In this document: positions 5,541 through 24,570 of the stretch, piece by piece
How positions within the stretch are numbered: the first letter of the stretch is position 1
How the letters are laid out: the number at the start of each line of letters is the position of its first letter
IMG/VR virus record: IMGVR_UViG_3300031539_000259
Location: 1 to 27,152 of that record
DNA from: a virus
Direction: 5' to 3' (one strand)
Length of the DNA: 27,152 nucleotides
The notes under the pieces: generated by a model
Told to the model about the DNA's origin: nothing
What the model saw: only the letters and a program-made list of their open reading frames with translations
Database searches by the model: none
Program-made: the position numbers and the translations under genes

Positions 5541-5550
5541 CTTACATTTA
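5541..5550 (+). promoter_or_regulatory. putative early/middle promoter core CTTACATTTA (uvsX)
   Basis: CTTACATTTA is preceded by an A-rich run (CCTAAAAAAT) and lies 30 bases before the uvsX start codon. It is one of seven copies of CTTAYATTTA upstream of replication-region genes. The C variant is shared only with the gp32 promoter. There is no recognisable TTGACA at the -35 distance. Activity is inferred from recurrence. Confidence 0.55.
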
Positions 5551-5580
5551 TATCATACATACTTTAAAAAGGAATATGAT

Positions 5581-6906
5581 ATGGCCAAGAGTAAAGAAAC
5601 ATCTTTAGATTTTTTTAGCAGCATAAAAACTGGGAATAAATACGCAGATGGTGAAGTAGACTTATCTACTAGTCAATGGTTTGACACTGGTTCCTATGCA
5701 TTTAATGCTATCTTATCAGGGGATATGAATAAGGGCATGCCAAATAATCGAGTTACTATGCTTGCTGGCGGAGAATCAGTGGGTAAATCATTTCTCGCTG
5801 GATATGGTCTTGCAAGACCCGCAGCACAAGAAGGATATTTTACCTATTACATAGATGCTGAAGGAAGTGTCGGTGATGAAAATATCATGAAATATGGTTT
5901 GAAACGCGGGCAGTTTAAAATAATACCAGAAGATATAGTAGAAAACGTAAAAAGCACTATGAATTCTATAATAAATCAGATTGAAGCAAAGCAAGGTACT
6001 GGAATAGAGAATGAACTTAAATGTGCATTTATTCTAGATTCTCAGGGGCAGTTGGATACCAATAAAAGCAGATCTGACTTAAACGAAGGGAAGGAAAAGG
6101 CAGATTTAACGTTTCAGAAAGAACTCAAAAAAATGTATAAAACAGTTGTTACGCGAATGGCTGTATTAAAGATTCCTCTTGTTGTCATAGCTCATATTTA
6201 TAAAGATAATATCACTCCCTTCATAAAAAAGACAGTAGTATCTGGCGGTCAGGGGGGATTGTACGGGTCATCTAATATAGTTCTTCTTACTAAAAGACAG
6301 TACAAAGAAGGTTCTATTAGAAAAGGTACTTTGTTAAATGCAAAACTTGTAAAAAGCAGGACTTGTATTGATGGAATAGAAGCCCCTATTTATCTTAATT
6401 TTGAAAAGGGACTGAATAGGTGGTATGGATTACATACATTTGCTGAAAATGCTGGTCTTTTAGTACTACATAGAGGAACTAAAACAGAAGAGAAACAAGG
6501 TATTATTATCCCAGATAGATTAAAAGAATCGTCTGATGGCGGGAAGACTTTCAAGAAACCTAAAGATATCTGGGTAATTAAAGACCCTAAAAAAGAACCT
6601 AAAGATTGGATTGTATGCAAAGATACTGAACTACATAAGAAAAGTACTATCGGAACAATCTTTGATGAAATTAATGAATGGGTTGGTAATAATTTTAAAC
6701 TTACCGATCCTGTTGACTTTGATTATGATGACTGGGAAGAGGATATTGCCGAAGTAAATGAAGAGTCCGAGGAAAAATCCACAGAATTAGCTGATGAAAA
6801 ACCCGAACAAGCCGCTGAGGAAAAAAACGAAAAATCCGAAGAAGCCGTTGATGTAAAATCCGACGAAAAAGTTACTGTTAAAAAAAGTTTCAAAAAAACT
6901 AAATAA
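5581..6906 (+). CDS. uvsX: UvsX/RecA-type recombinase
   Basis: This protein would form the recombinase filament on ssDNA and catalyse strand exchange for recombination-dependent replication and repair. Walker A is GGESVGKS at residues 63-70, followed by FTYYIDAEGS at about 87-96. Walker B is AFILDSQG at about 149-156. SGGQGGLYGSSN at 221-232 fits the DNA-binding L2 loop region. Length is 441 residues against about 390 for T4 UvsX; the excess is mainly a C-terminal tail from about residue 385 that is very rich in Glu, Asp and Lys (EEDIAEVNEESEEKS and onward), probably disordered and possibly regulating DNA access as RecA tails do. AAGGA lies upstream of ATG 5581. It heads the cluster that continues with helicase and gp32. 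Confidence 0.93.
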   Translation: MAKSKETSLDFFSSIKTGNKYADGEVDLSTSQWFDTGSYAFNAILSGDMNKGMPNNRVTMLAGGESVGKSFLAGYGLARPAAQEGYFTYYIDAEGSVGDENIMKYGLKRGQFKIIPEDIVENVKSTMNSIINQIEAKQGTGIENELKCAFILDSQGQLDTNKSRSDLNEGKEKADLTFQKELKKMYKTVVTRMAVLKIPLVVIAHIYKDNITPFIKKTVVSGGQGGLYGSSNIVLLTKRQYKEGSIRKGTLLNAKLVKSRTCIDGIEAPIYLNFEKGLNRWYGLHTFAENAGLLVLHRGTKTEEKQGIIIPDRLKESSDGGKTFKKPKDIWVIKDPKKEPKDWIVCKDTELHKKSTIGTIFDEINEWVGNNFKLTDPVDFDYDDWEEDIAEVNEESEEKSTELADEKPEQAAEEKNEKSEEAVDVKSDEKVTVKKSFKKTK

Positions 6907-6935
6907 TTTTTTGGTCATGTATAGGACTGATAGGA

Positions 6936-6945
6936 CTTATATAAT
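6936..6945 (+). promoter_or_regulatory. weak promoter-like motif CTTATATAAT before helicase
   Basis: CTTATATAAT begins like the CTTAYATTTA core but diverges at its 3' end, and lacks the A tract seen at the other copies. It lies 21 bases before the helicase start codon. It may be a weak member of the class, or chance in AT-rich DNA; readthrough from uvsX would also supply the helicase. Confidence 0.25.
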
Positions 6946-6966
6946 ATATATTGGATATAACACACA

Positions 6967-8751
6967 ATGGATTTTAGAAAAAGTAAACCAAAAAATGCTG
7001 GGCCTGCAAGTACCCAAATAGGAATATCATCAGAATTAGATAATATTCAAAGTACTCAATCAGACCAGCCTCAATCAGACCAGCCTCAGTTAGTTAAATC
7101 ACAACCAACTCCGGTCGTATTTCAAAGTATATCTAGGGAAGAAATTATCATTCGTAGAATGTTTGATGATCCTGTAATTCAAAATAAATTACTAAAGCAT
7201 TTAGACCCCGATTTATTTGAAGATGATATACATAAATCTTTATGCACGGCAATAACAAAAGGCTATAATAAATATGGTAAGTTTCCACAAGCAGAAGAAT
7301 TATCATTAGCATTACCAGATAACTCAGCTGAGAAAATTAGACTTACCAAAATAATGAACTTAAGAATTAAGACAATAGAACGAAATATTGTTATTGATGT
7401 AATAGAGAATTATTTCAGAGAAAAAAAGACCGAAAATATTTTAGGCAATGCCGCTGAAGCCATTCATGATAAGGATTTTGCTAATATATCTTCGTTAATT
7501 TTGGATCTACAGGAAGCCGTGAATTTCTCTCTCTACATGGATATAGGGTTAAATCTAGTAGAAGATGTTGATGAAGCGCTGAGACGATTAAATGATACAC
7601 ATAAGCCCATCCCATCTGCTTTGAGTGATATTAGAACATGGACAATGCAAGGAGAAGGAGTAGGCGGATGGTATCGGGGGCTATCTGTTTTTATGGGAAT
7701 GCCTAATGTAGGTAAAACTATACTGCTTTGTAACGAAGCTGCGTTCTCGTTCCAAAATGGATATAATGTTCTATATGTTACATTGGAAATGGAGGAAGCC
7801 CTTATATGGGAACGCATCACAGTAAATGTAACAGATATACCCTTGAATAAAATACGAGGCGAGAGTGGTGGGGATATTAAAAAATTATTGAGAGAACATA
7901 AAATAGGAAATAATCCTAAACAAGGCGAATTATTTGTACGCGAATTGGACTCTACCACTACGGCCTTAGATATTGAAAATTTGATTAATGAAATTAAGTT
8001 ATCAGAAGGCATAACTATTGATATATGCTTTATAGATTATATTCAAATAATGAAACCAATTATCCGCAAGGGTTCTATAAATAACAGAAATGGTTCGTTA
8101 TATTCATTTGGTAAAGAAATAGCTGAACAATTACGTGATTTATCTCGCAAACATAAAATTCCGATTGTTACACCATCTCAATTGAATAGAGATGGTTACA
8201 GCAACACAAATGCTGATATGAAAAATACAGCCGGGAGTGCTGGGTTAAATGATACTGCCGATTTTATTGTTACTATTACAACAGATCCTTATCTGGAGAA
8301 ATATGGTATGTTTTTACATACTATTATCAAAAACAGATTTGGACCAAAAATGATAACATTCTTAACAGAATGTGATACCATGCACATGAGAGTACGGTCT
8401 GCGTCTAATGAAATGAGAAAACAATATAGTGAAGCTCAAGTAAATGAAACTGTACAAATTGCTAATTTTAATAGAAACCCTAATGAAAAAATAGGCGAAG
8501 AAGTTGTAAAGGATAAAGCTACAGTAGATGCCGAAAAAAAAGAAGAAGAAGCGAATAGATTTAACAAAATAAAACAGGATGTTATCAAAAAAGAGCGCGA
8601 AAAGAATAAAAATAAAGAAAATTGCGTAAAAACCGAAGAAGTTGATATAAAAAACTCTATATTAGACACAGAGGACAGTACTTTTAAAAAGGGAAACTTC
8701 TTAGATACTGTACGCAAAAGAAAAGATGAATCTAATTCGGATAATACATAA
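6967..8751 (+). CDS. 41: replicative DNA helicase, DnaB/gp41 family
   Basis: This is a hexameric 5'-3' helicase of the RecA-fold superfamily 4, expected to unwind the fork and work with the primase encoded at 11008. An N-terminal helical domain (about residues 55-190, DnaB-N type, including MFDDPVIQNKLLKHLDPDLF) is followed by the motor domain. Walker A is GMPNVGKT at 244-251, then VLYVTLEMEE at about 268-277, Walker B ICFIDYIQ at 353-360, and VTPSQLNRDG with a downstream TADFIVTI strand. The length of 594 residues exceeds T4 gp41 (475); the surplus is a Gln/Ser/Pro-rich N-terminus with a duplicated SDQPQ and a long charged C-terminus rich in Lys and Glu. Its stop overlaps the next ATG by one base. 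Confidence 0.93.
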   Translation: MDFRKSKPKNAGPASTQIGISSELDNIQSTQSDQPQSDQPQLVKSQPTPVVFQSISREEIIIRRMFDDPVIQNKLLKHLDPDLFEDDIHKSLCTAITKGYNKYGKFPQAEELSLALPDNSAEKIRLTKIMNLRIKTIERNIVIDVIENYFREKKTENILGNAAEAIHDKDFANISSLILDLQEAVNFSLYMDIGLNLVEDVDEALRRLNDTHKPIPSALSDIRTWTMQGEGVGGWYRGLSVFMGMPNVGKTILLCNEAAFSFQNGYNVLYVTLEMEEALIWERITVNVTDIPLNKIRGESGGDIKKLLREHKIGNNPKQGELFVRELDSTTTALDIENLINEIKLSEGITIDICFIDYIQIMKPIIRKGSINNRNGSLYSFGKEIAEQLRDLSRKHKIPIVTPSQLNRDGYSNTNADMKNTAGSAGLNDTADFIVTITTDPYLEKYGMFLHTIIKNRFGPKMITFLTECDTMHMRVRSASNEMRKQYSEAQVNETVQIANFNRNPNEKIGEEVVKDKATVDAEKKEEEANRFNKIKQDVIKKEREKNKNKENCVKTEEVDIKNSILDTEDSTFKKGNFLDTVRKRKDESNSDNT

Positions 8752-9110
8752 TGGGATTTAGAAGTAATTACGTTGATGAAATTAATTCTCTATTGATGGA
8801 GAAGCGTTTTGATGGCGACGTTCAAGAATCATTACATATTCCAGAACATAAATTTAAGAAGATATCAGAAAAATTTAATTATGTACTTAAAACAGTATAT
8901 ACAAATCATATTGAAGAAGATATAAAAATGTTTCATATTATTCTTTCTCTACAGAATTATTTTGATATGCAGTGGCTTACTGATAATGTATTAGATAATG
9001 ATAATAGAAAAATAGTATCTGATGAAATGCATGAAGAATATAATATTAAATATATACCTAAAAAAAAGAAGAAAATATGTCCCGCCAAAAAAGAGATAGA
9101 GACGAAGTAA
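8751..9110 (+). CDS. hypothetical protein (119 aa) after helicase
   Basis: The start codon shares one base with the helicase stop (TAATG), so translation is coupled. The 119-residue product appears largely helical and ends in a basic segment (YIPKKKKKICPAKKE). It is not recognised. It is too short for the T4 helicase loader gp59 (217 residues) and lacks any similarity I can see, although its position between helicase and gp32 makes a helicase or fork accessory role plausible. The next gene starts inside it with a 34-base overlap. Confidence 0.65.
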   Translation: MGFRSNYVDEINSLLMEKRFDGDVQESLHIPEHKFKKISEKFNYVLKTVYTNHIEEDIKMFHIILSLQNYFDMQWLTDNVLDNDNRKIVSDEMHEEYNIKYIPKKKKKICPAKKEIETK

Positions 9111-9706: not shown

Positions 9707-9730
9707 ATTAGGTTACCTTTATAAAAAAAA

Positions 9731-9740
9731 CTTACATTTA
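9731..9740 (+). promoter_or_regulatory. putative early/middle promoter core CTTACATTTA (gp32)
   Basis: CTTACATTTA follows an unbroken run of A and lies 48 bases before the gp32 start. The sequence further upstream (GTTACCT about 20 bases before the motif) resembles the GTAACCT at the same distance before the uvsX copy, so these two promoters share more than the core. The leader ends in two purine-rich Shine-Dalgarno candidates (AAAAGGAAAA and AAGGAG), consistent with strong translation. Confidence 0.55.
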
Positions 9741-9788
9741 TTACTGTGATTATTTTTATTAAATAAAAAGGAAAAAAGGAGAAATAAA

Positions 9789-10943
9789 ATGACTAACAAA
9801 TCCACAGGTATCGATGAAGATGTATTTGCTGTAGATATGGAACAGCAACAGGCCGTTAACAAAGAAATGGCCTCGAAGAAAAAAAGAAAAGAAGACCCCA
9901 GATTTTATAAACCCCGATTATCAAAGAAAGGCGATTACTACATTGGTAGTTATCAAACGATGATTCGCCTTCTACCTCAAAAGGGATGGATTCAGGACAA
10001 ATCACTGCCTTTCTCACAAGAGCAACACATGCACTATATTAAAGAAGAGAAGAGTGGATTATTTCTTTATATCAAGTGCAGAAAGACATTAGGCCCTAAT
10101 GAAAAATGTCCTATATGTGATGCTAACTGGGCTGTATGGAGAAAAGCCAAGGATTCTAACGACAAAGTGATGTTGGAGATTGCAAAAGACCGTATAGCTA
10201 AAAAAACTGCTATTGGTAATGTTCTTATTTGTGCTGATTTGAATAATCCAGATTTAAACGGAGAAGTTAGACTTTGGGAGCATACATTACCCATTAATGC
10301 TAAATTATTAGCCCCTCTCAGGGCTGGTGATACATCTAATGATGCAGGTGAACCGGAGAAAAAAGGTTTTAAGAAAAAAGAGGTCCAAGAGAAAGTTGAA
10401 TTTTTTATTCCTTTTCATCCTACACAAGGACGAAATCGTATTCTTATCATTGAAGCACCATCAGATAATCCCATCATGGTATCTTATAATCAATCTTATT
10501 GGGATGAAGAAAACAGTGTGTTAGGATGGTATCCTAAGGGCGGAAATCCAGAAAATGATGAAATGATTGTTCCGGCTACAACCGAAGAAATAATGGCTGT
10601 ATTGGAAAAAACAATGTCTTTGAAGGAATTCACTGATGATGTACCTAGTGTTGAAGAAATGATTTTAAAGTTGAATGAATACAACGAAAAAGCTATAGAA
10701 GCGGGTGCCCGTCCCATAGTAGATGATAAAAGTTCAGGTACTCGACCAGCATTAACACCAAGACCCGATGAAGGAAATGCAAAGAAGTTCTATGCAACAG
10801 ATGATTCAACTGGGGATGATCCGGGTGATGCACCCCCACTTAACCAAAGCATAAAAGAGGAACCAGAGAAGACAGATAAATCAAAAGTAGCAGACGCTGC
10901 TCCAGCTGCTACTAATGACGATGATGATGACCTGCCATTTTAA
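9789..10943 (+). CDS. 32: gp32-like single-stranded DNA-binding protein
   Basis: This protein would coat ssDNA at the fork and in recombination. A Lys/Arg-rich N-terminal part (SKKKRKEDPRFYKPRLSKKG, 29-48) leads into the core. Cys97, Cys107 and Cys110 (KCRKTLGPNEKCPIC), with His80 or His82 upstream, closely follow the His-Cys-Cys-Cys zinc site of T4 gp32. Adjacent core strands include GNVLICADLNNP and EVRLWEHTLPINAKLL. Length is 384 residues against 301 in T4, with a long acidic C-terminus ending in DDDDDLPF, which is the form of the bacterial SSB protein-interaction tip rather than the T4 gp32 tail. It has a strong leader and is followed at once by a strong terminator, so it is probably expressed as an abundant separate transcript. 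Confidence 0.9.
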   Translation: MTNKSTGIDEDVFAVDMEQQQAVNKEMASKKKRKEDPRFYKPRLSKKGDYYIGSYQTMIRLLPQKGWIQDKSLPFSQEQHMHYIKEEKSGLFLYIKCRKTLGPNEKCPICDANWAVWRKAKDSNDKVMLEIAKDRIAKKTAIGNVLICADLNNPDLNGEVRLWEHTLPINAKLLAPLRAGDTSNDAGEPEKKGFKKKEVQEKVEFFIPFHPTQGRNRILIIEAPSDNPIMVSYNQSYWDEENSVLGWYPKGGNPENDEMIVPATTEEIMAVLEKTMSLKEFTDDVPSVEEMILKLNEYNEKAIEAGARPIVDDKSSGTRPALTPRPDEGNAKKFYATDDSTGDDPGDAPPLNQSIKEEPEKTDKSKVADAAPAATNDDDDDLPF

Positions 10944-10968
10944 CATTTAACTTTAATGATTAAGAGTT

Positions 10969-11004
10969 GGGAGAGTGTGGGCGTTCACACTCTCCCCTTT
11001 TTTT
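10969..11004 (+). terminator. intrinsic terminator after gp32
   Basis: A perfect 11-bp stem, GGGAGAGTGTG (10969-10979) with CACACTCTCCC (10986-10996), has a 6-base loop and is followed by C and seven T. It is the strongest hairpin in the window, is unusually GC-rich for this genome, and ends gp32 transcription immediately before the primase start codon. Confidence 0.9.
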
Positions 11005-11007
11005 AAA

Positions 11008-12225: not shown

Positions 12226-12228
12226 ATT

Positions 12229-13320: not shown

Positions 13321-13324
13321 TATA

Positions 13325-13333
13325 TATAAACTA
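13325..13333 (+). promoter_or_regulatory. putative late-type promoter core TATAAACTA
   Basis: TATATATAAACTATAATAAA contains the core at these positions, 23 bases before ATG 13357, with TAAGGA as ribosome binding site between. The downstream extension TAATAAA is close to that of the gp25 copy. Confidence 0.6.
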
Positions 13334-13356
13334 TAATAAATAGTTAAGGATATAAC

Positions 13357-14040: not shown

Positions 14041-14063
14041 ATTAGATTTTATACTAAATAATT

Positions 14064-14073
14064 CTTATATTTA
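14064..14073 (+). promoter_or_regulatory. putative early/middle promoter core CTTATATTTA (gp45)
   Basis: ATAATTCTTATATTTA lies directly upstream of the hairpin at 14075. If the motif acts near -10, the RNA for the clamp gene would begin at or inside that hairpin. Confidence 0.55.
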
Positions 14074-14074
14074 T

Positions 14075-14103
14075 GACAGGGATTTATTTCCCTGTCATTT
14101 TTT
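14075..14103 (+). terminator. intrinsic terminator hairpin before the clamp gene
   Basis: An 8-bp stem, GACAGGGA (14075-14082) with TCCCTGTC (14089-14096), has a 6-base loop and is followed by A and six T. It would end transcription from the gene at 13357. It lies just after the promoter motif at 14064 and 15 bases before the clamp ATG, so it could instead form at the 5' end of the clamp mRNA. Confidence 0.75.
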
Positions 14104-14118
14104 GTTTGGAGAATTTCT

Positions 14119-15051
14119 ATGAACGCTGATATAAAATTTACACCAGAATATATGGAAGTATTGAATAATATGCTTAAAATTGTTGCCGATCTACCCAATA
14201 GGCGACATGCTTTAATATTCAAAAAAGATGGTCTATACCTACATTCGGCTATGGCTTTAGACACTTTGGTACACACAATCACTACCGAAAAAAATATAAA
14301 TTTCGCCCCAGATGAAATAGGAATAACTAATCTAAGCGAATTTATTAATTACTCAAATGCAATCGGATACCCGGAAAAAGAAACAAAAATAAGCCTGATA
14401 GAGGAATTGACTACTAAAAGAGAAAAGATAAGCTCGTTTAAGTTTGAAGGGGAACACGCAACGTATAGAATGCCTGTTGCCCAATTAGCTGCATTTAGAA
14501 GGGATTACGATAAGAAAGTTCCAATATCAAGGGATAAGGATCCTATGGACTTGGTGGGTAAATTCTATCTAGACGTGGATGACCTTAAACGTATTGTAAC
14601 TGATATACAGCTGATGGGAAAATCAAATTCATTTGGTTTATCAGTTGCGAATGATAAAATAACCATGTATATGTCAAATATACAAAATCATCAAGTAACT
14701 AAGGTAATTGACGAAACTAAGGCAAAAGTATTTGATAGTTATAGCACTACTGCACATGAACAGGATAATAATCATCCGTTTAAATTATTCCCTAATAAAA
14801 TATTTAGGTATATGTCCTATTTTGGGTGTGATTTTGAAGTAGAATTAAGAGTAATGAAAAGAGCAAAGGGTGATATAATGGCCGTTAAATGTTTTGGTGT
14901 TATGGATTTTATTGAACAGAAAAAGACTAAATCTATGAAAAAAGCTGATAATATAGCAGATGTGCCGAAAGAACCAGTAAACGTATTTATTGGAACCCAA
15001 GAAAATTCTGCACACGCAGCTTCAGCAAATATGCTCAAAATAGTCAGATAA
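14119..15051 (+). CDS. 45: gp45-like sliding clamp (PCNA fold)
   Basis: The layout follows T4 gp45. A first beta-alpha-beta half (residues 5-120: FTPEYMEVLNNMLKIV, DEIGITNLSEFINYS, TKISLIEEL) ends in FKFEGEHATYRMP. A second half (148-262: FYLDVDDLKRIVTDIQLMGK, FGLSVANDKITMYMSN, then VELRVMKRAKGDIMAVKCFG) aligns by eye with the gp45 segment that begins at its second helix (AEDLQQLL). It would trim to a ring that tethers the polymerase; in T4 the clamp also activates late promoters. At 310 residues it is longer than T4 gp45 (228), with a C-terminal extension of about 40. It is monocistronic, behind an early-type motif. A second clamp-like gene lies at 17489. Confidence 0.68.
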   Translation: MNADIKFTPEYMEVLNNMLKIVADLPNRRHALIFKKDGLYLHSAMALDTLVHTITTEKNINFAPDEIGITNLSEFINYSNAIGYPEKETKISLIEELTTKREKISSFKFEGEHATYRMPVAQLAAFRRDYDKKVPISRDKDPMDLVGKFYLDVDDLKRIVTDIQLMGKSNSFGLSVANDKITMYMSNIQNHQVTKVIDETKAKVFDSYSTTAHEQDNNHPFKLFPNKIFRYMSYFGCDFEVELRVMKRAKGDIMAVKCFGVMDFIEQKKTKSMKKADNIADVPKEPVNVFIGTQENSAHAASANMLKIVR

Positions 15052-15074
15052 TAATTTCATCAAAACTAGATGTA

Positions 15075-15083
15075 TATAAACTA
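15075..15083 (+). promoter_or_regulatory. putative late-type promoter core TATAAACTA
   Basis: TGTATATAAACTATATATAA contains the core, 44 bases before ATG 15128. The placement makes the GTG at 15095 an unlikely start, because a transcript beginning just downstream of the motif would leave it almost no leader. Confidence 0.6.
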
Positions 15084-15127
15084 TATATAAATTAGTGTAT
15101 ATAGTTTCATTTAAGTGGGTTAAAAAC

Positions 15128-16750: not shown

Positions 16751-16771
16751 AAAAACTATATATTTAATATT

Positions 16772-16800
16772 AAAGGGCCATGAAAAAGGCCCTTTTTCTT
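16772..16800 (+). terminator. intrinsic terminator
   Basis: AAAGGGCC (16772-16779) pairs with GGCCCTTT (16788-16795) around an 8-base loop, followed by TTCTT. It closes the transcript of the acidic protein gene and lies 11 bases before the next promoter-like motif. Confidence 0.85.
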
Positions 16801-16811
16801 TGGTTAAAAAA

Positions 16812-16821
16812 CTTATATTTA
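16812..16821 (+). promoter_or_regulatory. putative early/middle promoter core CTTATATTTA
   Basis: GGTTAAAAAACTTATATTTA lies between the terminator and ATG 16827, with only 5 bases between the end of the motif and the start codon. If the motif acts near -10, the message would be leaderless or nearly so. Confidence 0.5.
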
Positions 16822-16826
16822 TATGT

Positions 16827-17492
16827 ATGAAAAAAGAATTAGAAGAAAAGCTGTATAAAGAATTTCCGTTACTCTATGCGGAACATAAATTACCAATGTC
16901 CCATACATGTATGTGTTGGGGATTTGAACATAGTGATGGTTGGTATAATTTGATTTATAAATTGTCTTCTAAATTAGAACGCCTGATAAAGAAACAAATG
17001 GATGAAACTAAGATAGCTGATAAAGAATGTGTATGTGGATGTAAGCTAACTGATCATAATTATTCTATGAATAATACATGCACCACAGTACATAAAATAT
17101 CGTATTATCCTTTTAAGAATAATTGGTTCACAGTGCCTAAATCCAAACCATTAATGATATATAAGAGCATTTTACAAAAATTTAAATTATGGATTAATAT
17201 GTTATGTAAATTTATATCACCTGTAATCTATAAAAAGGTTAAATGCAGCTGTAAAGGATATGAAGAATATCACGCGACCGCATCACAAGTAAAAGAAAAA
17301 TTCGGTACGCTTCGTTTTTATGGTAATAATTTTACAGATGAGATGGATAAATTAGTTGATGCAGCCGAACGTAAATCAGCAAAAACATGTGAATATTGCG
17401 GTAAGCCCGGAAAGCAAAGAAATGGTGGTTGGGTACGTACTCTTTGTAATACATGTAATAAAACCCTTGATAAAGAAGAGGAGATTGAATGA
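16827..17492 (+). CDS. phage zinc-ribbon protein of unknown function (221 aa)
   Basis: This resembles a phage protein type that I recognise by pattern but not by function: an N-terminal CMCWGFEHSDGWYNLI block (28-43), a central ASQVKEKFGTLRFY block (152-165), and a C-terminal zinc ribbon CEYCGKPG with CNTC (Cys188, 191, 207 and 210). Extra cysteine clusters at 68-72 (CVCGC) and 140-142 (CSC) may bind further metal. The conserved-looking N-terminus supports ATG 16827 over any later start, although no ribosome binding site precedes it. Its last four bases overlap the start of the second clamp-like gene, so the two are coupled. It contains no membrane segment that I trust. Confidence 0.72.
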   Translation: MKKELEEKLYKEFPLLYAEHKLPMSHTCMCWGFEHSDGWYNLIYKLSSKLERLIKKQMDETKIADKECVCGCKLTDHNYSMNNTCTTVHKISYYPFKNNWFTVPKSKPLMIYKSILQKFKLWINMLCKFISPVIYKKVKCSCKGYEEYHATASQVKEKFGTLRFYGNNFTDEMDKLVDAAERKSAKTCEYCGKPGKQRNGGWVRTLCNTCNKTLDKEEEIE

Positions 17493-18733
17493 GTACAGAA
17501 TTAGAAGTAAAGAAACCTGCCATAATGGATATTAGTGCATATAGCAATATCCAACAAAAGTTAAATTTTTTAGCACAAGGGTTGAGGAATTTAAAAGATG
17601 CCGAAAAGCAATTAATTTATATTGAATGTTATACAAAACCCGCTGAAACAGATGAGGAAGAAGACATTAATATAATTCGTTTCAGTACAGATGTTTCTAT
17701 TTGGACAGAAATATCCCCTTTAAATAAACACACAACCCCAATACTGGAAAAATCAATTGCTGTTAATTTATATGACCTTTATAATGTTGTACAAAATTCT
17801 ATTTCAGATAGTACTGAATTTATTTCTTTTAAACTTGATGAGACAGATACTAGCAATCCTAATCTTGTGATATCCGGTTTTTATAATGAACTACGGGAAT
17901 ATGATGAACTGGAAGTGAGTTTAAAGATTCATGAGATGGAATTTCCACGAAGAGAATTTAAATCATCAAGGGATGCTGATTTGATTGCAATGTTTGAATT
18001 AGACCATTTATCATTATTTAATATTCTTCGTATGAACATTGAACATAAAACAGAAGGCGTTAATGTTGTTATAAATGATAAAAAGATATCATTCCAAACA
18101 GATTATAATGGACTAAAAACTTCATTGATTATTAAAAGCTACCGAGATCAGTTATTCTTCAAGGATTTTACTGTGTTCATACCATTCTATTTTTTGAATT
18201 TAATGGCGGGTACGGGAGATATAGAAAATGTCAAATTTCATGTATTCAATGATTCAGTGATAGTAGAGGCGGGTGGATATAATTTTATATATAAAATAGA
18301 AAAAGAAGTCGAGGGATTTAAAATATCAGATGATGAACTTGAAGATTTTTGTGTAGTTGACCCTAAGAATGCCGAAGCTGTTATGACGTTGGTAAACAGG
18401 GTTAATAAACCTGCTCCTATTTCGGTTGCGAGTATATCTAAATTAGAAGATCAGATGGCAGAAATAAAAACTGGATTAGATGGTAGATATAAAATATCTG
18501 TTTTATTAGAATGCATAATGCAAGCAGAAACACCAATTACAATTGATACCGATATATTTCAATGGATGGTTACTAATACACAAGTAGATGGTATTAAAAT
18601 ACAGCGGTATGCTCATACTAATAACATATATATTTCATACGAGAACGAGCTATTTATAAAAAAGATCCAATATATACATGATATTTTCACAGATTATAGA
18701 ATGGTAGAAACTACTAAAAAGTTGGAGGCGTAA
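17489..18733 (+). CDS. second, DnaN/beta-like sliding-clamp candidate
   Basis: The 414 residues repeat a clamp-like order. Residues 89-104 (SIAVNLYDLYNVVQNS) and 142-153 (EVSLKIHEMEFP) mirror the end of beta-clamp domain 1. Residues 168-272 mirror a whole domain: MFELDHLSLFNIL, VNVVINDKKISFQTDY, DFTVFIPFYFLNLM, ENVKFHVFNDSVIVEAGGYNFIYKI. Residues about 330-400 look like a degenerate third domain (PITIDTDIFQWMV, VDGIKIQRY, NIYISYEN). Bacterial DnaN has three domains in about 366 residues. This differs from the gp45-like gene at 14119 in length and domain count. ATG 17489 overlaps the previous stop (ATGA) and follows a good GAGGAG site. The early-type motif at 16812 would drive it. The fold call rests on pattern only. 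Confidence 0.45.
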   Translation: MSTELEVKKPAIMDISAYSNIQQKLNFLAQGLRNLKDAEKQLIYIECYTKPAETDEEEDINIIRFSTDVSIWTEISPLNKHTTPILEKSIAVNLYDLYNVVQNSISDSTEFISFKLDETDTSNPNLVISGFYNELREYDELEVSLKIHEMEFPRREFKSSRDADLIAMFELDHLSLFNILRMNIEHKTEGVNVVINDKKISFQTDYNGLKTSLIIKSYRDQLFFKDFTVFIPFYFLNLMAGTGDIENVKFHVFNDSVIVEAGGYNFIYKIEKEVEGFKISDDELEDFCVVDPKNAEAVMTLVNRVNKPAPISVASISKLEDQMAEIKTGLDGRYKISVLLECIMQAETPITIDTDIFQWMVTNTQVDGIKIQRYAHTNNIYISYENELFIKKIQYIHDIFTDYRMVETTKKLEA

Positions 18734-18957
18734 TGGAAAAGGGAACTAAATTAATTTATGCGTCATTAGGATTCGAAGCAGATGGAACGCCAACCCATGA
18801 TTCGTATAGTCAAGAATTAAAGTTTGATCAATTCATTGATGATAAAATAATGGGAATAACAAAAGAAGGATTTATTAGAATAATTGATCCCGAAAAATGT
18901 AAAATATTAGATACGGATATGTATTTTACCGAACACGATAATCCCCTTTTAGGTTAA
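18733..18957 (+). CDS. hypothetical protein (74 aa)
   Basis: This is a small unknown protein whose ATG shares a base with the preceding stop (TAATG) and follows a strong TTGGAGG site, so it is a real, coupled gene at the end of the zinc-ribbon/second-clamp operon. It has 74 residues, mixed charge and no cysteine cluster or membrane helix. Its stop overlaps the stop of the minus-strand gene (TTAA shared), leaving no terminator between the two convergent units. Position suggests a replication accessory, but nothing in the sequence proves it. Confidence 0.65.
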   Translation: MEKGTKLIYASLGFEADGTPTHDSYSQELKFDQFIDDKIMGITKEGFIRIIDPEKCKILDTDMYFTEHDNPLLG

Positions 18958-19523
18958 TCTTCATTAACCTTATCAGCAGCACTATCTTCATCTTCATCTT
19001 CAGACTCATCTGATGGAGTTTCTTCGTCCCCGAACATATTTTCTACACTATCTTCTTCGTCGGTAGGTTCTTCATCAGTAGTTTCTCCCATGTCACCCAT
19101 GATGTCGTCTAATTCTGCATCTCCCATGTCACCCATGATGTCGTCTACTTCTGCATCTCCCATGATGTCTCCTAATCCGTCATCTTGCGGAGTTTCTTCA
19201 GAAATTTCTTCAGGAGTTCCTCCCATTTCATCAGCAAATTCATCTTCGGCTAATTCAATATCTTCTGACTTTTCTGTTTTATCTGGTGTCATTCCCGGAA
19301 GATCAGCTATTTTTTCATCAAATTTGTTTTTTACTAATTCAGCCATTTCACCATCAGACATATACATATATTTTTCAGGATTAAATTTTCTGTCATGATC
19401 TACTTCAGCAGCAGCTGACCTATATAACCCTTTAACTTTAGCTTCATTCCGTTCATTTACGGGAAGTCTTTCATTTGCGTCTCTTATTAACCGGGTTTCT
19501 TCTACAATAGCTTTTATTTTCAT
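18954..19523 (-). CDS. acidic repeat protein, late-type, minus strand (189 aa)
   Basis: ATG at 19523 has GGAAA upstream; the frame is also open to TTG 19535, which is less likely. The first 75 residues are basic to neutral and helical (MKIKAIVEETRLIRDANERLP). The rest is almost entirely Asp, Glu, Gly, Met and Ser, with a tandem DDIMGDMGDAE-type repeat encoded by two 36-bp units and a partial third. A small folded head with a long acidic tail recalls prohead core or other packing proteins, but the family is unknown. A TATAAACTT motif lies 25 bases upstream on this strand. It is convergent with the second-clamp operon and divergent from the gene at 19633. Confidence 0.65.
   Translation of the reverse strand: MKIKAIVEETRLIRDANERLPVNERNEAKVKGLYRSAAAEVDHDRKFNPEKYMYMSDGEMAELVKNKFDEKIADLPGMTPDKTEKSEDIELAEDEFADEMGGTPEEISEETPQDDGLGDIMGDAEVDDIMGDMGDAELDDIMGDMGETTDEEPTDEEDSVENMFGDEETPSDESEDEDEDSAADKVNED
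19085..19156. repeat. tandem 36-bp repeat within the minus-strand acidic gene
   Basis: Two 36-bp units (19085-19120 and 19121-19156) differ at one base and are followed by a truncated third copy. They encode repeated DIMGDMGDAE blocks on the minus strand. The length is a multiple of three, so copy number can change without breaking the frame. Confidence 0.85.
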
Positions 19524-19548
19524 GGTATTTTCCAAATGTTGTTATTAA

Positions 19549-19557
19549 AAGTTTATA
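19549..19557 (-). promoter_or_regulatory. putative late-type promoter core (minus strand) TATAAACTT
   Basis: Read on the minus strand this is TTATATAAACTTTTAATAAC, with the core 25 bases before ATG 19523. It diverges from the plus-strand copy at 19572, 14 bases away. Confidence 0.5.
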
Positions 19558-19571
19558 TAAATTTGTTATTG

Positions 19572-19580
19572 TATAAACTA
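19572..19580 (+). promoter_or_regulatory. putative late-type promoter core TATAAACTA
   Basis: TTGTATAAACTAAATATAG contains the core, 52 bases before ATG 19633. With the minus-strand copy at 19549 it forms a compact bidirectional promoter region of about 30 bases. Confidence 0.6.
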
Positions 19581-19632
19581 AATATAGAAATAAAAACTTA
19601 GTTAATATTTTTATTTAACGAGGAAGAAAATT

Positions 19633-20376
19633 ATGTACGATTTATTTAGTATGGAAAAACTGCTTGAGGGCGCAAAAATAGCAGAAAAAATAGCTGATGG
19701 CGTTGTAGACGAACAGGCATATAATGTATTAACGCAATGTGTTAATGAAGAAGTATTAATAGAGAGCAGAGAAGAAGTAGAAAGTATTTTGGAAAATGCT
19801 GGTAAGATTAGCGGAGAATTGGATCTTGACCAATTGGCTAAAGAGGTCAAAGAAGCATTGCCAGAAGCAGCTGCACCTAAAGCTGCACCTAAAGCTGCAC
19901 CTAAAGCTGCACTTAAAGCTGTACCTAAAGCTAAAAAAGAATGTGTTAAAGAGGAATGTGCAGAAGCATGTAAAGATAAATGCGAATGTAAAGGTAAATG
20001 CGAATGCAAAGGTAAAACCGAAGCAGCAGCAAATCCCGGAAAACCAGCGGCTGGTATGGACTCTATAGACAAGTTCCTTACTGCGGCTCCTGTTAAGCAG
20101 AAAGATTTTGTAGATGCAAATACGAATTCTGAGCATACACCTTCTGGGTCAGCTGATAAAGCAGAAGTTGACAAAAATGCTGAATCTACTCAAAAAGAAA
20201 TGGTCAAAGAAGCAAATGCTAAGAAGAAATTCGAAGAAGTTGCTAAAAAACAGAATAAAGTTAATTTGACCGAAAGCATCAATAAATTTAAAGGATTCGT
20301 AGAAAGCATCAAAACCGACGAAAACGCTAAGTTTGTAGATGCCGTCATTAACGGATTTGATATAATCTGGAAATGA
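19633..20376 (+). CDS. low-complexity protein with Ala-Pro-Lys repeats and Cys cluster (247 aa)
   Basis: This is an unknown protein with three parts. Residues 1-78 are helical and acidic. Residues 79-100 are a repeat of A-A-P-K units encoded by 12-bp repeats. Residues 104-125 hold seven cysteines (104, 109, 113, 117, 119, 123 and 125) in a Lys-rich CKDKCECKGKCECKG pattern that could bind metal. The last 100 residues are charged and helical, ending in a more hydrophobic INKFKGFVESI and FVDAVINGFDIIWK. GAGGAAG precedes ATG 19633. A late-type promoter suggests a structural or assembly role; the Cys cluster resembles a metallothionein only in composition. Confidence 0.65.
   Translation: MYDLFSMEKLLEGAKIAEKIADGVVDEQAYNVLTQCVNEEVLIESREEVESILENAGKISGELDLDQLAKEVKEALPEAAAPKAAPKAAPKAALKAVPKAKKECVKEECAEACKDKCECKGKCECKGKTEAAANPGKPAAGMDSIDKFLTAAPVKQKDFVDANTNSEHTPSGSADKAEVDKNAESTQKEMVKEANAKKKFEEVAKKQNKVNLTESINKFKGFVESIKTDENAKFVDAVINGFDIIWK
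19870..19929 (+). repeat. five tandem 12-bp repeats (GCTGCACCTAAA)
   Basis: Three perfect copies (19870-19905) are followed by two single-base variants. Each unit encodes Ala-Ala/Val-Pro/Leu-Lys. It is an in-frame minisatellite that could vary in length between related phages. Confidence 0.85.
19978..20013 (+). repeat. two 18-bp repeats encoding KCECKG
   Basis: AAATGCGAATGTAAAGGT at 19978-19995 is repeated with one change at 19996-20013. The duplication doubled the CxC motif of the cysteine cluster. Confidence 0.85.
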
Positions 20377-20409
20377 TCATTTCATAATAACAGATTCTCA
20401 ATATATTAA

Positions 20410-20440
20410 GGGACATTTTTTAATAAAATGTTCCTTTTTT
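20410..20440 (+). terminator. intrinsic terminator before the polymerase gene
   Basis: GGGACATTTT (20410-20419) pairs with AAAATGTTCC (20425-20434), with one G-T pair, around a 5-base loop and is followed by six T. It ends the transcript of the gene at 19633 and lies 13 bases before the next promoter-like motif. Confidence 0.8.
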
Positions 20441-20453
20441 ATGTCTAAAAATT

Positions 20454-20463
20454 CTTATATTTA
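20454..20463 (+). promoter_or_regulatory. putative early/middle promoter core CTTATATTTA (polymerase)
   Basis: TAAAAATTCTTATATTTA lies immediately after the terminator, and only 14 bases separate it from the polymerase ATG. Those bases contain ACAGGAGA, so the leader would be little more than the ribosome binding site. Confidence 0.6.
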
Positions 20464-20477
20464 GGACAGGAGACTCT

Positions 20478-23369
20478 ATGCCCGATAATTCCCCCGAAAA
20501 TCGCCCAATGTATACTGCTATTCACCATGATAGGTTTAATGACCTGATATTTATATGGTATGCAGATGGCACAAAAAACGGGTTTAGGGTTAAACACCGT
20601 TCATACACTCCTGTCCAAGGACAAAATGATGCAAAACCTTCTGGAATGGTAGATATATTTGGTAGGGAACTATATGAAATCATAGTTACGGGTAAAGAAG
20701 AAATGGACATTCGACAATATAATATGGGTGCACATAATGATATTGCCGAATGTGATATAGATTTTAGAACCAGATGGTTAGAAGAACATTACAAAAAAAT
20801 GGATGATATACCAGTAAACGTATCCGATTTCAATATATGCTTTCTTGATATAGAGGTCTCGGCTACCGATAGGTTCCCCCATGCGGATCAGGCAGATTAT
20901 CCCGTAAACTGCGTTACCATACATTTTACTAAAACAGGGAAATATTATGCATTCGGCCTGAACAGAGAAATTAAACCAGAACTGACAGAAAAATTATCTC
21001 AATCCAATTGTGAATATATAAATTGTCCAACAGAACGAGGTTTATTAACTGAACTATTTACCAAAATCGGAGAAGGTGGGGCTGATTTCTTATCTGCATG
21101 GAACGGGCATTACTATGATTTCCCTTATTTAGTTAATAGAGCAGCAAAATTAAATGTTGACATTAAGTTAATGAGCAGACTCCCTCAACAATATAAAACT
21201 GCATATGTAAGTAAACGCGACAATAATTTAGTTCTGGGCGGAACTGCAATGGTGGACTTTCTTCTGTTATACAGAAAGTTTACCATTAAAGAACAAGATG
21301 ATTTTAAACTGGATACCATAGGTAAACTTGAAACGGGTGAACATAAAGCACCTTTACCCGATAAATATAAATCATGGGTTAATTATTGGGATGATTGGGT
21401 ATGGTATAACTTTAAAGATGTAGAACTGATGGTAAACATCGAAAAAGCATGTAAGATGTTTGATACTACTATACATGCATGTGCTGAGGCTAGAGTTCCT
21501 TTTGAGAGTATATTTGAAACCAAGAAAATGGAAGTAGGATTTATTCTGAACTATTTACATCGCGAAGGAATTGCGATGCCCCCATTAAGAGATAGACCAA
21601 GGCAGTCTTTCGCTGGGGCTTATGTGTATGCTAAGGTCGGATACTACACTTATTTAGTATCATATGATTATGGTTCTATGTATCCTTCATTTATCATGGG
21701 AGCAAATACTTCTCCTGAAACTAAAGTTATTTTGAAGAATGGTGAATATTTTGATGCAAATATGAACCGGGTGACTGACGTAGACCCTTCAACTCTTGTG
21801 AGAAGTCCTTTAAAAGTCTTTAAAACTAATGGAGATGGTAGTGAAGAAATAGATTATGAGGTATTTTATCGAAGCGACAAAGTAGGTATCATACCACGAG
21901 TTACTGAGAAGATATTCATTGGTCGTAAAGGACATAAAAAAACACAACAGCAGTTTGAGCGCGAAGGGGATTACGCACAGGCATCTGTATATGAAATGAA
22001 GCAAAAGACCTATAAAATTTTTGGTAACGGTCTTTATGGTCTATTAGGCAATCCTTATTTCCAATTCTATGATCTAGATAACTCAGGTACTATTACAGCA
22101 TTTGGCGTTGAACTAATTACTTATACGATTAAACATCTTTGTCGATATTTGGAAGGGGAATTTAAGGTAGATCCAAGGTTTATAGATGCATTCGGCGCAC
22201 CCCCTAACATAGACGAATCTCTCGAAGGAAGTTTTGAAGAAGTAAATGAAGATACAGGCAAAGTAGATATCCATTATAATAGACTGTCTCATGGTGATAC
22301 TGATTCTTTCTTTGTTAAATATCAAGACATATACTTACCATTCATTGATAAAGTAGATAAAGAAGTTGAAGTCACCGTAGTTAAAGGGAATAAGATTATA
22401 TATAAAACGTCTTATCAATTAGATACAGAAGAGAAAGCTTCCAAAAAAGATTTTAATAATAAATGCATAGAATATTGTGAATCGTGGACTAAAATTGATA
22501 ACGAACACAAAGCTAAAGCGTTTAAAGATGGAATGTATATAGAAGGCGAATATAGGGTTTTCTATAACAGACACTGCCTAACTGATTTATGTAGGGTATT
22601 AGATGCTGTATTAATGGAAGATGTTCTTTCTGGTATAATGCAGAAATTCGCTGATAAATGGAATTTTATGAAGAATACATTAACTCTTAAAAGGGAAAAA
22701 TGTATAACTCAGGCTATTGTCACAGCTAAGAAAAAATACATATGTAACGTAGAAAGTAACGAGGATATTAAAATTTATGACCCAGATAAACGGTTTAAAG
22801 TCACTGGATTAGAAATTGTTAGAAGTTCTACTACCCCATTTTCTCGTAAGTTTGTTTTGAATTGCGTTAAAGAACTTCTTAATACAATGGATAAGTCGCA
22901 TATACGCGATGAATATATTAAGATAAAAACTGATTTCTTTGCCATGGCAGAGGAAGGTAAAATATATGACTTGGCTATTCCATCTGGTATTAAAACAGAT
23001 CCACCTGATTATGATGATATGTTAAAGATGACCGAGGAAGATAGGAAAAAAATAGATTGGCGAGTACGTGCGGGGGCGGCGTGGAATTTTTTAATCAGAA
23101 ATGATGAAATATTAAAAGATGAAATGTACGAACCTATATATGGCGGAGCAAAAGCAAAGTTCCTAAAGCTGGCACATAATGAGTTTGGAATTAACTCACT
23201 TGCCTTTATCGGAGACGAATGCCCTCAGAGGATAGTAGACAGATTTAATGTAGACTGGAATGCTCAATGGGAAACTGGATTTGCAAATGTAATGAATAGA
23301 CTTTTCGATGCGGTAGGATGGGGCGAAGTTGAATACGATGAACGCGATTCTATGATGGAATTGCTTTGA
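20478..23369 (+). CDS. 43: family B replicative DNA polymerase (gp43-like)
   Basis: This is the leading- and lagging-strand polymerase with proofreading. Exo I is FLDIEVS (Asp124, Glu126), Exo II is WNGHYYDFPYL and Exo III is YNFKDVELM. Polymerase motif A is SYDYGSMYPS (Asp397). Motif B is KIFGNGLYG (Lys513, Asn517, Tyr520), with Gly where most family members have Ser. Motif C is HGDTDS (605-610, Asp607 and Asp609). All catalytic acidic residues are present, so the enzyme should be active in synthesis and exonuclease. It has 963 residues against 898 in T4. The C-terminus ends in SMMELL, where T4 gp43 carries its clamp-binding peptide. ACAGGAGA precedes ATG 20478. Confidence 0.97.
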   Translation: MPDNSPENRPMYTAIHHDRFNDLIFIWYADGTKNGFRVKHRSYTPVQGQNDAKPSGMVDIFGRELYEIIVTGKEEMDIRQYNMGAHNDIAECDIDFRTRWLEEHYKKMDDIPVNVSDFNICFLDIEVSATDRFPHADQADYPVNCVTIHFTKTGKYYAFGLNREIKPELTEKLSQSNCEYINCPTERGLLTELFTKIGEGGADFLSAWNGHYYDFPYLVNRAAKLNVDIKLMSRLPQQYKTAYVSKRDNNLVLGGTAMVDFLLLYRKFTIKEQDDFKLDTIGKLETGEHKAPLPDKYKSWVNYWDDWVWYNFKDVELMVNIEKACKMFDTTIHACAEARVPFESIFETKKMEVGFILNYLHREGIAMPPLRDRPRQSFAGAYVYAKVGYYTYLVSYDYGSMYPSFIMGANTSPETKVILKNGEYFDANMNRVTDVDPSTLVRSPLKVFKTNGDGSEEIDYEVFYRSDKVGIIPRVTEKIFIGRKGHKKTQQQFEREGDYAQASVYEMKQKTYKIFGNGLYGLLGNPYFQFYDLDNSGTITAFGVELITYTIKHLCRYLEGEFKVDPRFIDAFGAPPNIDESLEGSFEEVNEDTGKVDIHYNRLSHGDTDSFFVKYQDIYLPFIDKVDKEVEVTVVKGNKIIYKTSYQLDTEEKASKKDFNNKCIEYCESWTKIDNEHKAKAFKDGMYIEGEYRVFYNRHCLTDLCRVLDAVLMEDVLSGIMQKFADKWNFMKNTLTLKREKCITQAIVTAKKKYICNVESNEDIKIYDPDKRFKVTGLEIVRSSTTPFSRKFVLNCVKELLNTMDKSHIRDEYIKIKTDFFAMAEEGKIYDLAIPSGIKTDPPDYDDMLKMTEEDRKKIDWRVRAGAAWNFLIRNDEILKDEMYEPIYGGAKAKFLKLAHNEFGINSLAFIGDECPQRIVDRFNVDWNAQWETGFANVMNRLFDAVGWGEVEYDERDSMMELL

Positions 23370-23373
23370 ATAA

Positions 23374-23383
23374 CTTATATTTA
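23374..23383 (+). promoter_or_regulatory. putative early/middle promoter core CTTATATTTA
   Basis: GAATAACTTATATTTA begins 5 bases after the polymerase stop and lies 37 bases before ATG 23421. A strong AAAGGAG site sits between. Confidence 0.5.
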
Positions 23384-23420
23384 AATAGGAATAGATTATC
23401 TTCTAAAGGAGTAAAATACA

Positions 23421-24116
23421 ATGACACCAGATGAACGTAAAAATAAATGCAAGACAAGAAACGTGGTATTATTTGATGGAGAAAAATTTTATAGATTCAC
23501 CGTTAAAAACGGAGAATTTTCTAAAATAATAACTGACATCATAACCAATATATTAACCATGGATTTTTCAAATGATACAATTAAAAATTTTACGGTAATA
23601 GTGGATGGTTATAAGCCATATAACTTACCATTTGATAAAGAAAAATTATTGAAAATAAAAGAAGATTGGAAAAATACTAAGATACCAATAAATCAGACTG
23701 TAGAAGAAAAAGATGTATCGGTATGTACAACTAATGGCCTGCACGTATACGATCAAAAGGTAATCAAAAAAATTAAAATTTTAACTGATATAATGGATTC
23801 AGATAAACCGTTTGATAATGTGTTGAGTGTATCTTATTTAATATTTGATGTTGACGGAGAAGAGTTTAAGGTACCAACAGAAAAAGTTAAAATAGAACGC
23901 TTATGGCTAGGGTTAATGCTGGGAAATGATGCTGGGTTTTTTGACCTAGACGATTTAAACAATGGTGATATATTGATTGAGAAGATAAAAACCATCGAAT
24001 ATAATTATGAAGAAAAACCATTTAAGGAAAAATCCCAAAGAATCCGAAATTCTATTGACCTTTGTAATGCAATTGTAGCGGAAGATAATAGTGAATTAGA
24101 TAGAAAAACTGCCTAA
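23421..24116 (+). CDS. hypothetical protein after polymerase (231 aa)
   Basis: This is an unknown protein of 231 residues, with a good AAAGGAG site before ATG 23421 and its own early-type motif. It is mixed alpha/beta (FTVIVDGYKPYNL; VSYLIFDVDGEEFKVPTEKV), soluble, with only two cysteines and no recognisable catalytic motif. The location between polymerase and clamp loader suggests DNA metabolism by association only. It ends 5 bases from the convergent minus-strand gene at 24122, with no terminator seen between them. Confidence 0.7.
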   Translation: MTPDERKNKCKTRNVVLFDGEKFYRFTVKNGEFSKIITDIITNILTMDFSNDTIKNFTVIVDGYKPYNLPFDKEKLLKIKEDWKNTKIPINQTVEEKDVSVCTTNGLHVYDQKVIKKIKILTDIMDSDKPFDNVLSVSYLIFDVDGEEFKVPTEKVKIERLWLGLMLGNDAGFFDLDDLNNGDILIEKIKTIEYNYEEKPFKEKSQRIRNSIDLCNAIVAEDNSELDRKTA

Positions 24117-24121
24117 CGTAA

Positions 24122-24532
24122 CTACTTTAACGGGCCACCTAGATTATAGCCACCGCTATCTCCAGCCCATTCACCAGAGCTAATATTAGCATTATCGTTA
24201 CGACCTTGCCCCGATTTGAGAGGGTCTAATGTAATAGCCCCTTTTCCAGCGATAGGGTAATATTTAACACCATTACCAAAAGACTGTGCTTTTATTACTT
24301 GTTTAAGCTTATTATTTGGTAAAGTTTGTTTAAAATAGTCAGCTTTATCATTAGGGTTAAAAGATATAGCGTTTGCAGGCGGGCCAGTTGTACCAACCGT
24401 TTGAGGTGGTTTATTAGCATCATCGGAACTTGGGGCTTCAAATATCAATTTAAAGGCAGTTTCTATGGTCTCTAATAAATTAGAGTTATTCCCAGTTTTT
24501 AACTGTTTGAGATATTTAACAAATTTATTCAT
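24122..24532 (-). CDS. hypothetical late-type protein, minus strand (136 aa)
   Basis: This is an unknown protein with a basic, amphipathic N-terminus (MNKFVKYLKQLKTGNNS) and a Pro/Asn/Gly-rich remainder ending in GEWAGDSGGYNLGGPLK. The N-terminus is not a convincing signal peptide. A TATAAACTG motif on this strand ends 13 bases before the ATG at 24532, leaving a very short leader without a clear Shine-Dalgarno sequence. The small size, lack of an enzyme motif and late-type promoter suggest a virion or internal head protein; this is inference. Confidence 0.6.
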   Translation of the reverse strand: MNKFVKYLKQLKTGNNSNLLETIETAFKLIFEAPSSDDANKPPQTVGTTGPPANAISFNPNDKADYFKQTLPNNKLKQVIKAQSFGNGVKYYPIAGKGAITLDPLKSGQGRNDNANISSGEWAGDSGGYNLGGPLK

Positions 24533-24545
24533 GATAATCTAAATA

Positions 24546-24554
24546 CAGTTTATA
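24546..24554 (-). promoter_or_regulatory. putative late-type promoter core (minus strand) TATAAACTG
   Basis: Read on the minus strand this is TTTTTATAAACTGTATTTAG. It lies 6 bases from the plus-strand CTTATATTTA motif at 24561, so the two classes of motif stand back to back. Confidence 0.5.
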
Positions 24555-24560
24555 AAAATT

Positions 24561-24570
24561 CTTATATTTA
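24561..24570 (+). promoter_or_regulatory. putative early/middle promoter core CTTATATTTA (gp44)
   Basis: TATAAAAATTCTTATATTTA, 26 bases before ATG 24597, with AGAGGA as ribosome binding site. It would drive the clamp-loader operon. Confidence 0.6.

Follow-up and report, generated by a model that had tools for sequence, protein, structure and literature searches.

The virus record IMGVR_UViG_3300031539_000259 of IMG/VR, analysed here over positions 1 to 27,152 (the 27,152-base window), stems from a far relative of the T4-like phages and carries the ten-base motif CTTAYATTTA upstream of replication-type genes. Judging from sequence, the most likely reading of this motif is as a -10-only promoter of a replication class and as one spelling of a clade-wide promoter type, and we are rather confident that it serves the replication (middle-equivalent) genes as a single-element promoter of the -10 type. 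It could account for the way in which T4-like phages that lack the usual middle-gene activator turn on their replication genes. Middle transcription in T4-like phages that lack MotA is an old gap, to which this clade offers a concrete and testable answer. Enrichment, strand, position, class separation and a -10-to-ATG register in relatives were obtained by computation, and from these we infer promoter activity in the cell, its timing and all start points.

According to our gene calls, which follow a simple longest open reading frame (ORF) scheme with starts chosen by ATG and Shine–Dalgarno score and are not a curated annotation, 94.5% of the window is coding. Both strands together contain eight exact matches to CTTAYATTTA where 0.72 are expected (at most three in 100 dinucleotide shuffles), and seven of these lie on the sense (+) strand between genes, upstream of replication-type genes. 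The upstream noncoding DNA, comprising 22 regions with 1,819 nucleotides (nt) from the window and its extension in the record L009, holds seven exact copies versus 0.04 expected (200 shuffles). L009 represents a near-identical strain (98.7% identity over 10.5 kb), in which the four motif copies within the shared region are all kept. An initial annotation of the window had reported the motif as a mark of replication transcription units, and this observation is confirmed: its seven motif coordinates are all correct and all on the plus strand, and seven of the eight exact copies are intergenic, in sense orientation and at such units. The check set beforehand, on how often coding DNA contains the motif, leaves it unrefuted, as only a single antisense copy occurs there. 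This eighth copy (5417–5426, -), unlisted by the initial annotation, lies within the ORF 4575–5513 and is probably due to chance. If one mismatch is allowed the excess in the window is gone (16 matches versus 14.95 expected), which ties the signal to the exact motif. An AT-rich word could also recur in AT-rich intergenic DNA through composition alone, and the loss of the excess with one mismatch would suit such an origin, as would the sizeable background of TATATTT in relatives (see below). This explanation, to which we assign next to no probability, is already contradicted by the seven copies versus 0.04 expected, by the conserved placement before orthologous genes and by the spacing peak described below.

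Two of the seven intergenic copies, all on the plus strand, read CTTACATTTA. The first (5541–5550) lies upstream of the gene for a UvsX-like recombinase (5581–6906, +; PHROGs, E 1.9e-35), with TACATT at 5543–5548 as the putative -10 hexamer and a predicted +1 at A5555; the second (9731–9740) lies upstream of the gene for a single-stranded DNA-binding protein (9789–10943, +; PHROGs, E 3.3e-15), with its hexamer at 9733–9738 and a predicted +1 at 9745. The remaining five read CTTATATTTA. The copy at 14064–14073 precedes the gene 14119–15051 (+) for a possible sliding clamp of the gp45 type (phrog_223 is matched with 4.9e-4 by one of four family members, which is not that of the window), and its predicted +1, A14078, falls within the 5' arm of a terminator hairpin. 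The copy at 16812–16821 ends 5 nt before the ATG at 16827, in one unit with the gene 17489–18733 (+), whose product has a DnaN sliding-clamp fold according to a structure model (Z about 21, root mean square deviation 7–9 Å, mean pLDDT 69.9). Further downstream, 20454–20463 (predicted +1 at A20468) is found ahead of the family B DNA polymerase gene (20478–23369, +; PHROGs, E 1e-125), 23374–23383 between the polymerase and clamp loader genes, upstream of gene 23421, and 24561–24570 upstream of the gp44-like clamp loader gene (24597–25634, +; PHROGs, E 1.7e-50). Five of the seven units contain a replication protein that was recognised or matched by fold, or else the weak clamp match. At the unit of the gp41/DnaB-like replicative helicase gene (6967–8751, +; PHROGs, E 2.1e-70), the variant CTTATATAAT (6936–6945, +) is the sole form of the motif, and relatives have TATATTT or TATATTA there. 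A primase gene is also recognised in the window (PHROGs).

All seven sites contain TAYATT, a hexamer of the sigma-70 -10 type, before replication genes. As noted in the initial annotation, an A/T tract precedes the motif, with A at six or all seven sites in each of four consecutive positions immediately before it, and a -35 is lacking: the best match to TTGACA at any site is three of six. Apart from the A-tract and the core, only scattered single A/T positions recur among the seven sites; AAATTAG was seen by eye about 18 nt upstream of three (5541, 9731, 14064) and is absent from the other four. The distance from motif to start codon varies widely in the window, from 5 to 48 nt. Several known promoter types were compared and rejected for these sites. 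No sigma-70 early promoter with TTGACA at 16–18 bp was seen, and the TGn of an extended -10 promoter occurs at none of the seven; in relatives, -35 elements of at least 5/6 accompany 6 of 50 TATATTT sites versus 2% background. T4 middle promoters are described as having a MotA box and depending on MotA and AsiA (PMC2988021); they share with the sites studied here the association with replication and nucleotide genes, the -10 hexamer and the absence of a -35. However, the MotA box (wwwTGCTTtA, 11–13 bp upstream of the -10) is matched in only 3, 7, 4, 7, 5, 4 and 3 of nine letters at the seven sites, both scores of seven being T-rich stretches of differing sequence. Further differences are the hexamer, which is TATATT or TACATT rather than TATAAT, the many apparently leaderless starts in relatives, and MotA and AsiA themselves, neither of which was found in the fragment records of relatives. 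The statement that the motif differs from the T4 early, MotA-dependent middle and late consensus holds against these consensus sequences as given in the accessible part of the T4 literature. TAYATT would then occupy -12 to -7, the place of a sigma-70 -10 element, with transcription beginning 7 nt downstream of the hexamer, and instead of a -35 or MotA box this lineage would keep the A-tract and a CT at -14/-13.

Relatives of the window are remote. Its polymerase is less than 30% identical to those of the listed phage records, a megablast search against phages gave no match, no relative emerged from a contig scan with alignment A3, and scans with single whole-protein sequences yielded only L009 and the distant L010. 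When loci were collected with a polymerase alignment (80 kept), L009 was the only one with a motif excess among the rows listed, and L018, the best of the distant T4-like phages listed (polymerase 27% identical), lacks such a motif ahead of its genes. A 54-residue fragment of the polymerase, used as query, retrieved L098, the near-identical records L099 and L100, L101, and L102. The longer of the L099/L100 pair is G003 (164,708 bases), L101 is record G004 (112,584 bases) and L102 is record G005 (39,264 bases). In L098, G003, G004 and G005 the polymerase is 52–58% identical to that of the window and gene order is conserved. For these four we compared cells, i.e., gene–phage pairs with a tblastn ortholog (24 replication, 20 structural); the genes 23421, 13357 and 18954 were left out, as no ortholog was found there. 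Exact CTTAYATTTA is not enriched in these relatives, with 0 to 3 copies per record, like the reversed control. Ahead of the orthologous replication units, however, TATATTW is present in 20 of 24 cells (15 TATATTT, 5 TATATTA). The four cells without it are uvsX in all three testable relatives and the ortholog of gene 17489 in L098, where there is no upstream gap. CTTAYATTTA therefore appears to be the spelling that one lineage uses for a clade-wide class, with TATATTW in its sister lineages at the same genes.

The other genes of the window have a motif class of their own, which came to light when the remaining intergenic gaps were read. The window alternates between the two: class M, CTTAYATTTA, and class L, TATAAACT. 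Across the whole window, TATAAACT shows a modest excess (8 versus 2.95 expected, a number reached by one of 100 shuffles), and in upstream noncoding DNA there are 6 copies versus 0.28 expected. The L site at 3550–3557 (+) overlaps the end of gene 2772–3554 and lies upstream of gene 3577, which has weak virion/baseplate matches. Others are located at 13325–13332 (+) upstream of gene 13357, at 15075–15082 (+) upstream of gene 15095/15131, at 19550–19557 (-) upstream of the minus-strand gene 18954–19535, at 19572–19579 (+) upstream of gene 19633, at 24547–24554 (-) upstream of the minus-strand gene 24122–24532, at 26919–26926 (-) upstream of the minus-strand gene 26251–26895, and at 27003–27010 (+) upstream of a large gene that is complete in L009 (10416–13679). 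No family match names this large gene, which we take to be tail-sheath-like; the label "structural-type" for L genes is based on it and on the weak virion matches of gene 3577, and for the majority of L genes no family is named. In the relatives, TATAAACT is found at 20/20 structural-unit and 0/24 replication-unit cells, and TATATTT at 2/20 structural-unit cells, a separation of classes with Fisher P values of 6e-13 and 2e-6 for cells that are not independent. A de novo k-mer search of G003 (165 kb) returned as its top words the families TATAAACTA and CTATATT/TATATTTA. The former resembles the T4 late promoter TATAAATA, which is served by gp55, gp33 and gp45: a -35 is absent, and a gp55-like late sigma factor is encoded in G003 (26802–27314, -; phrog_234) and in G004 (by phmmer). 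It differs in one extra inserted C, and A, which 48 of 53 TATAAACTA sites have at position 14, suits a box that exceeds TATAAATA by one base, with the probable start one base further. The L class is in line with a late promoter read by the gp55-like sigma of the relatives; CTTAYATTTA is not of that class.

Within the clade, TATATTT-N5-ATG occurs 28 times versus about 9 expected (Poisson P 5e-7), and each of the other spacers between 0 and 15 yields 5–13 occurrences. The profile across spacers is flat for each of three control words, and TATATTT itself has no N5 peak in 775 kb of distant T4-like phages (2 there; the largest value is 14, at N3), which speaks against a chance origin of the peak. 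By gene calls, the distance of 5 applies to 7/33 TATATTT sites in G003, 5/20 in G004, 0/6 in G005 and 1/1 in L098. Such a register points to TATATT as a -10 element (positions -12 to -7) and to the A of the ATG as +1, so that the mRNA would be leaderless. The predicted +1 is A at 37 of 50 TATATTT sites in G003 and G004 (leaderless ATGs included), and this frequency, together with the N5 register, matches the expectation for a leaderless promoter and would be hard to explain otherwise. Genes in this register include those for an exonuclease, a DnaQ-like protein, a dCMP deaminase and an SbcD-like protein, and these apparently leaderless genes offer a reading of start points from sequence only. 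In the window, the site at 16812 is near-leaderless, with no Shine–Dalgarno sequence before the ATG at 16827.

A motif 5–48 nt before start codons could instead act in RNA, within the leaders of mRNAs for replication, as a processing site or as a ribosome or repressor site similar to that of RegA, which according to a database record note represses replication genes in T4. We regard this as very improbable. The N5 register in relatives fits a -10-to-start distance and not a leader element, the distances in the window vary widely, and three sites abut terminators, as promoters of new units would. These terminator-like hairpins, all on the plus strand, are found at 16772–16795 and 20408–20436, upstream of the motifs at 16812 and 20454, and at 14073–14098, directly after the motif at 14064. 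The description of three copies as terminator-adjacent is therefore correct, but at 14064 the hairpin follows the motif immediately instead of preceding it.

MotA and AsiA, searched for with PF09114 and PF09010, gave no match in any of six records at E<=1, although the six are fragmentary and a divergent homologue could escape such a search; phmmer produced only weak AsiA matches in the same fragment records (best E 0.028). G003 encodes two proteins with Sigma70_r2 and r4 domains, sig107 (107761–108591, +) and sig161 (161876–162613, +), both matching phrog_351. An ortholog of sig107 with 62% identity is present in L136, whereas sig161, sought in other contigs, was found in G003 only. TTGACA-17-TATATT occurs upstream of sig161 and of the sig107 ortholog of L136. 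With no MotA or AsiA found and two extra sigma-70-family factors in one relative, a phage sigma becomes possible, and the dedicated phage reader proposed in the initial annotation is plausible. The chance that host RNA polymerase is redirected to the motif by an early phage factor, for which the sigma-70-family proteins of G003 are candidates, seems to us just short of even. The more specific form of this step, in which sig161, sig107 or their counterparts read the motif within a cascade from host sigma through phage sigma to gp55, is conceivable at rather less than an even chance. Its attractions are the domain content and phrog_351 matches of the two proteins, the early-type promoters in front of sig161 and of the L136 ortholog of sig107, the conservation of sig107 and the searches that found no MotA or AsiA. 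A precedent exists in gp36 of phiEco32, which uses the single-element promoter tAATGTAtA with starts 6–8 bp downstream (PMC8948821). Yet region 4 is present in the G003 sigmas and is said to be missing from gp36 in the same text, and sig161 was seen in G003 only.

The alternative that needs no phage factor is an ordinary promoter of the host's primary sigma, with TATATT read by its -10 alone and timing set by gene position, terminators and copy number. We consider this a serious possibility, while leaning against it. In relatives, TGn precedes 13 of 57 TATATTT sites versus 4.5% background. The early-type promoters of the relatives share the TATATT hexamer with the replication type, so one sigma, possibly the host's, could read both. 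In contrast, the window sites have neither TGn (0/7) nor -35, and a promoter without both is normally weak. Replication and structural units are cleanly separated, and the hexamer is TATATT and not TATAAT even at early-type sites: behind -35-like elements G003 has 18 perfect TATATT versus 1 TATAAT, and a host promoter class of the TATAAT type, sought there, was hardly seen. For phage Ma-LMM01, on the other hand, promoters of the host SigA type are reported to serve all phases (PMC5780444).

Several of these results weigh against the view of the motif as a replication-class promoter with a reader of its own. Besides the shared hexamer of early-type sites, both G003 sigmas retain region 4, the normal reader of a -35, and no sigma-70 gene above the family cut-off is present in the window, L009, G004, G005 or the L098 record, all of which are fragments. 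G004 matches G003 almost only over 1–101 kb and may just lack the sigma region. The exact ten-mer lacks enrichment in relatives, as stated above, and at uvsX, a motif-bearing gene of the window, TATATTW is found in none of three relatives. The chance background of TATATTT is sizeable, with about 11 expected and 33 seen in the upstream regions of G003, and in those of L098 it occurs once versus 1.26 expected. G003 and G004 are related, which makes the cells non-independent. Of the seven window sites, just one comes close to a leaderless arrangement, exceeding the N5 register by a single base, and A stands at the predicted +1 of three sites, G of two and T of two. The interpretation given in the initial annotation is partly supported: replication-unit marking, the missing -35 and the distinction from T4 classes hold, while the second class TATAAACT and the lineage-specific status of the ten-mer had been overlooked.

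Taken as a whole, the -10-type promoter reading can be extended to a scheme in which a sigma cascade replaced MotA and AsiA in a branch of the T4 lineage. We put this forward tentatively and would sooner doubt than accept all of its steps jointly. Host sigma would read early promoters of the TTGACA-17-TATATT type and thereby give rise to one or two sigma-70-family factors of the phage, which would direct host RNA polymerase to the -35-less TATATTW/CTTAYATTTA promoters, whose mRNAs would often be leaderless; and gp55 would finally read the late promoters TATAAACTA of the structural genes, marked in the window by the separate class TATAAACT. The spelling of the -10 would drift among lineages along with its reader. 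Such a two-class promoter code would assign each unit to replication or structure, with the gp55-like protein and the two sigma-70-family proteins as candidate readers.

Comparable situations have been described in other phages. For RB49, RB43 and Aeh1, a middle promoter consensus was sought and none recognised in T4-like phages lacking MotA (PMC1524935), and marine T4-like cyanophages are said to be without T4-like middle promoters and motA and/or asiA (PMC5780444). The nearest working analogue is the gp36 promoter of phiEco32 (PMC8948821), likewise a single short element without a -35 and with a start few bases downstream, read by a phage sigma; it differs in sequence and phage group, and the phage reader proposed here is only a candidate. 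The T4-like Campylobacter phage NCTC12673 is reported to use two AT-rich promoter motifs, deduced from RNA-seq (PMC6024767), but 31 upstream regions in its first 50 kb contain 0 TATATTT, 0 TATAAACT and 6 TATAAATA. RpoD-like sigma genes are also reported for T4-related jumbo phages of group 2, with no target promoter given in the portion available (PMC7824862); G003, in contrast, is a 165-kb record and below jumbo size. A search of open papers for TATATTTA together with phage and promoter found no relevant description, a statement limited to that search.

The arrangement at 14064 places the predicted start 14078 inside the 5' arm of the hairpin 14073–14098. From these positions, an RNA begun there would hold half of the 5' arm and a read-through RNA the whole hairpin. 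A comparable layout, with a promoter motif before a hairpin, exists upstream of the ortholog of gene 17489 in G004. Two clamps in one phage are possible, given the modelled DnaN fold of 17489 and the gp45-type assignment of 14119, which comes from one weak family match; the AlphaFold model of gene 14119 has a mean pLDDT of 38, and sequence searches of the PDB with alignments A4 and A5 gave no matches. At 24547–24570, between the genes 24122–24532 and 24597, an L site (-) and an M site (+) are divergent and nearly abut, and the same pair is found in G003, G004 and G005. Gene 23421–24116, which has its own M motif, has no ortholog found in the four relatives.

Among the other features, a gene open at the start of the window (1–948) belongs to PHROG 14336, for which no function is given; we presume a DnaJ-type protein from its HPDK and CxxCxGxG repeats. 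In G003 and G004, the ATG of its ortholog is preceded by TATATTT at a distance of exactly 5 nt. Within gene 19633–20376, a short repeat (19880–19935) encodes units of the APKA type. A strong terminator-like hairpin of 12 pairs (10969–10996) separates the single-stranded DNA-binding protein and primase genes, and the likely ATG of the primase gene (11008) follows it within at most 12 nt and without a Shine–Dalgarno sequence.

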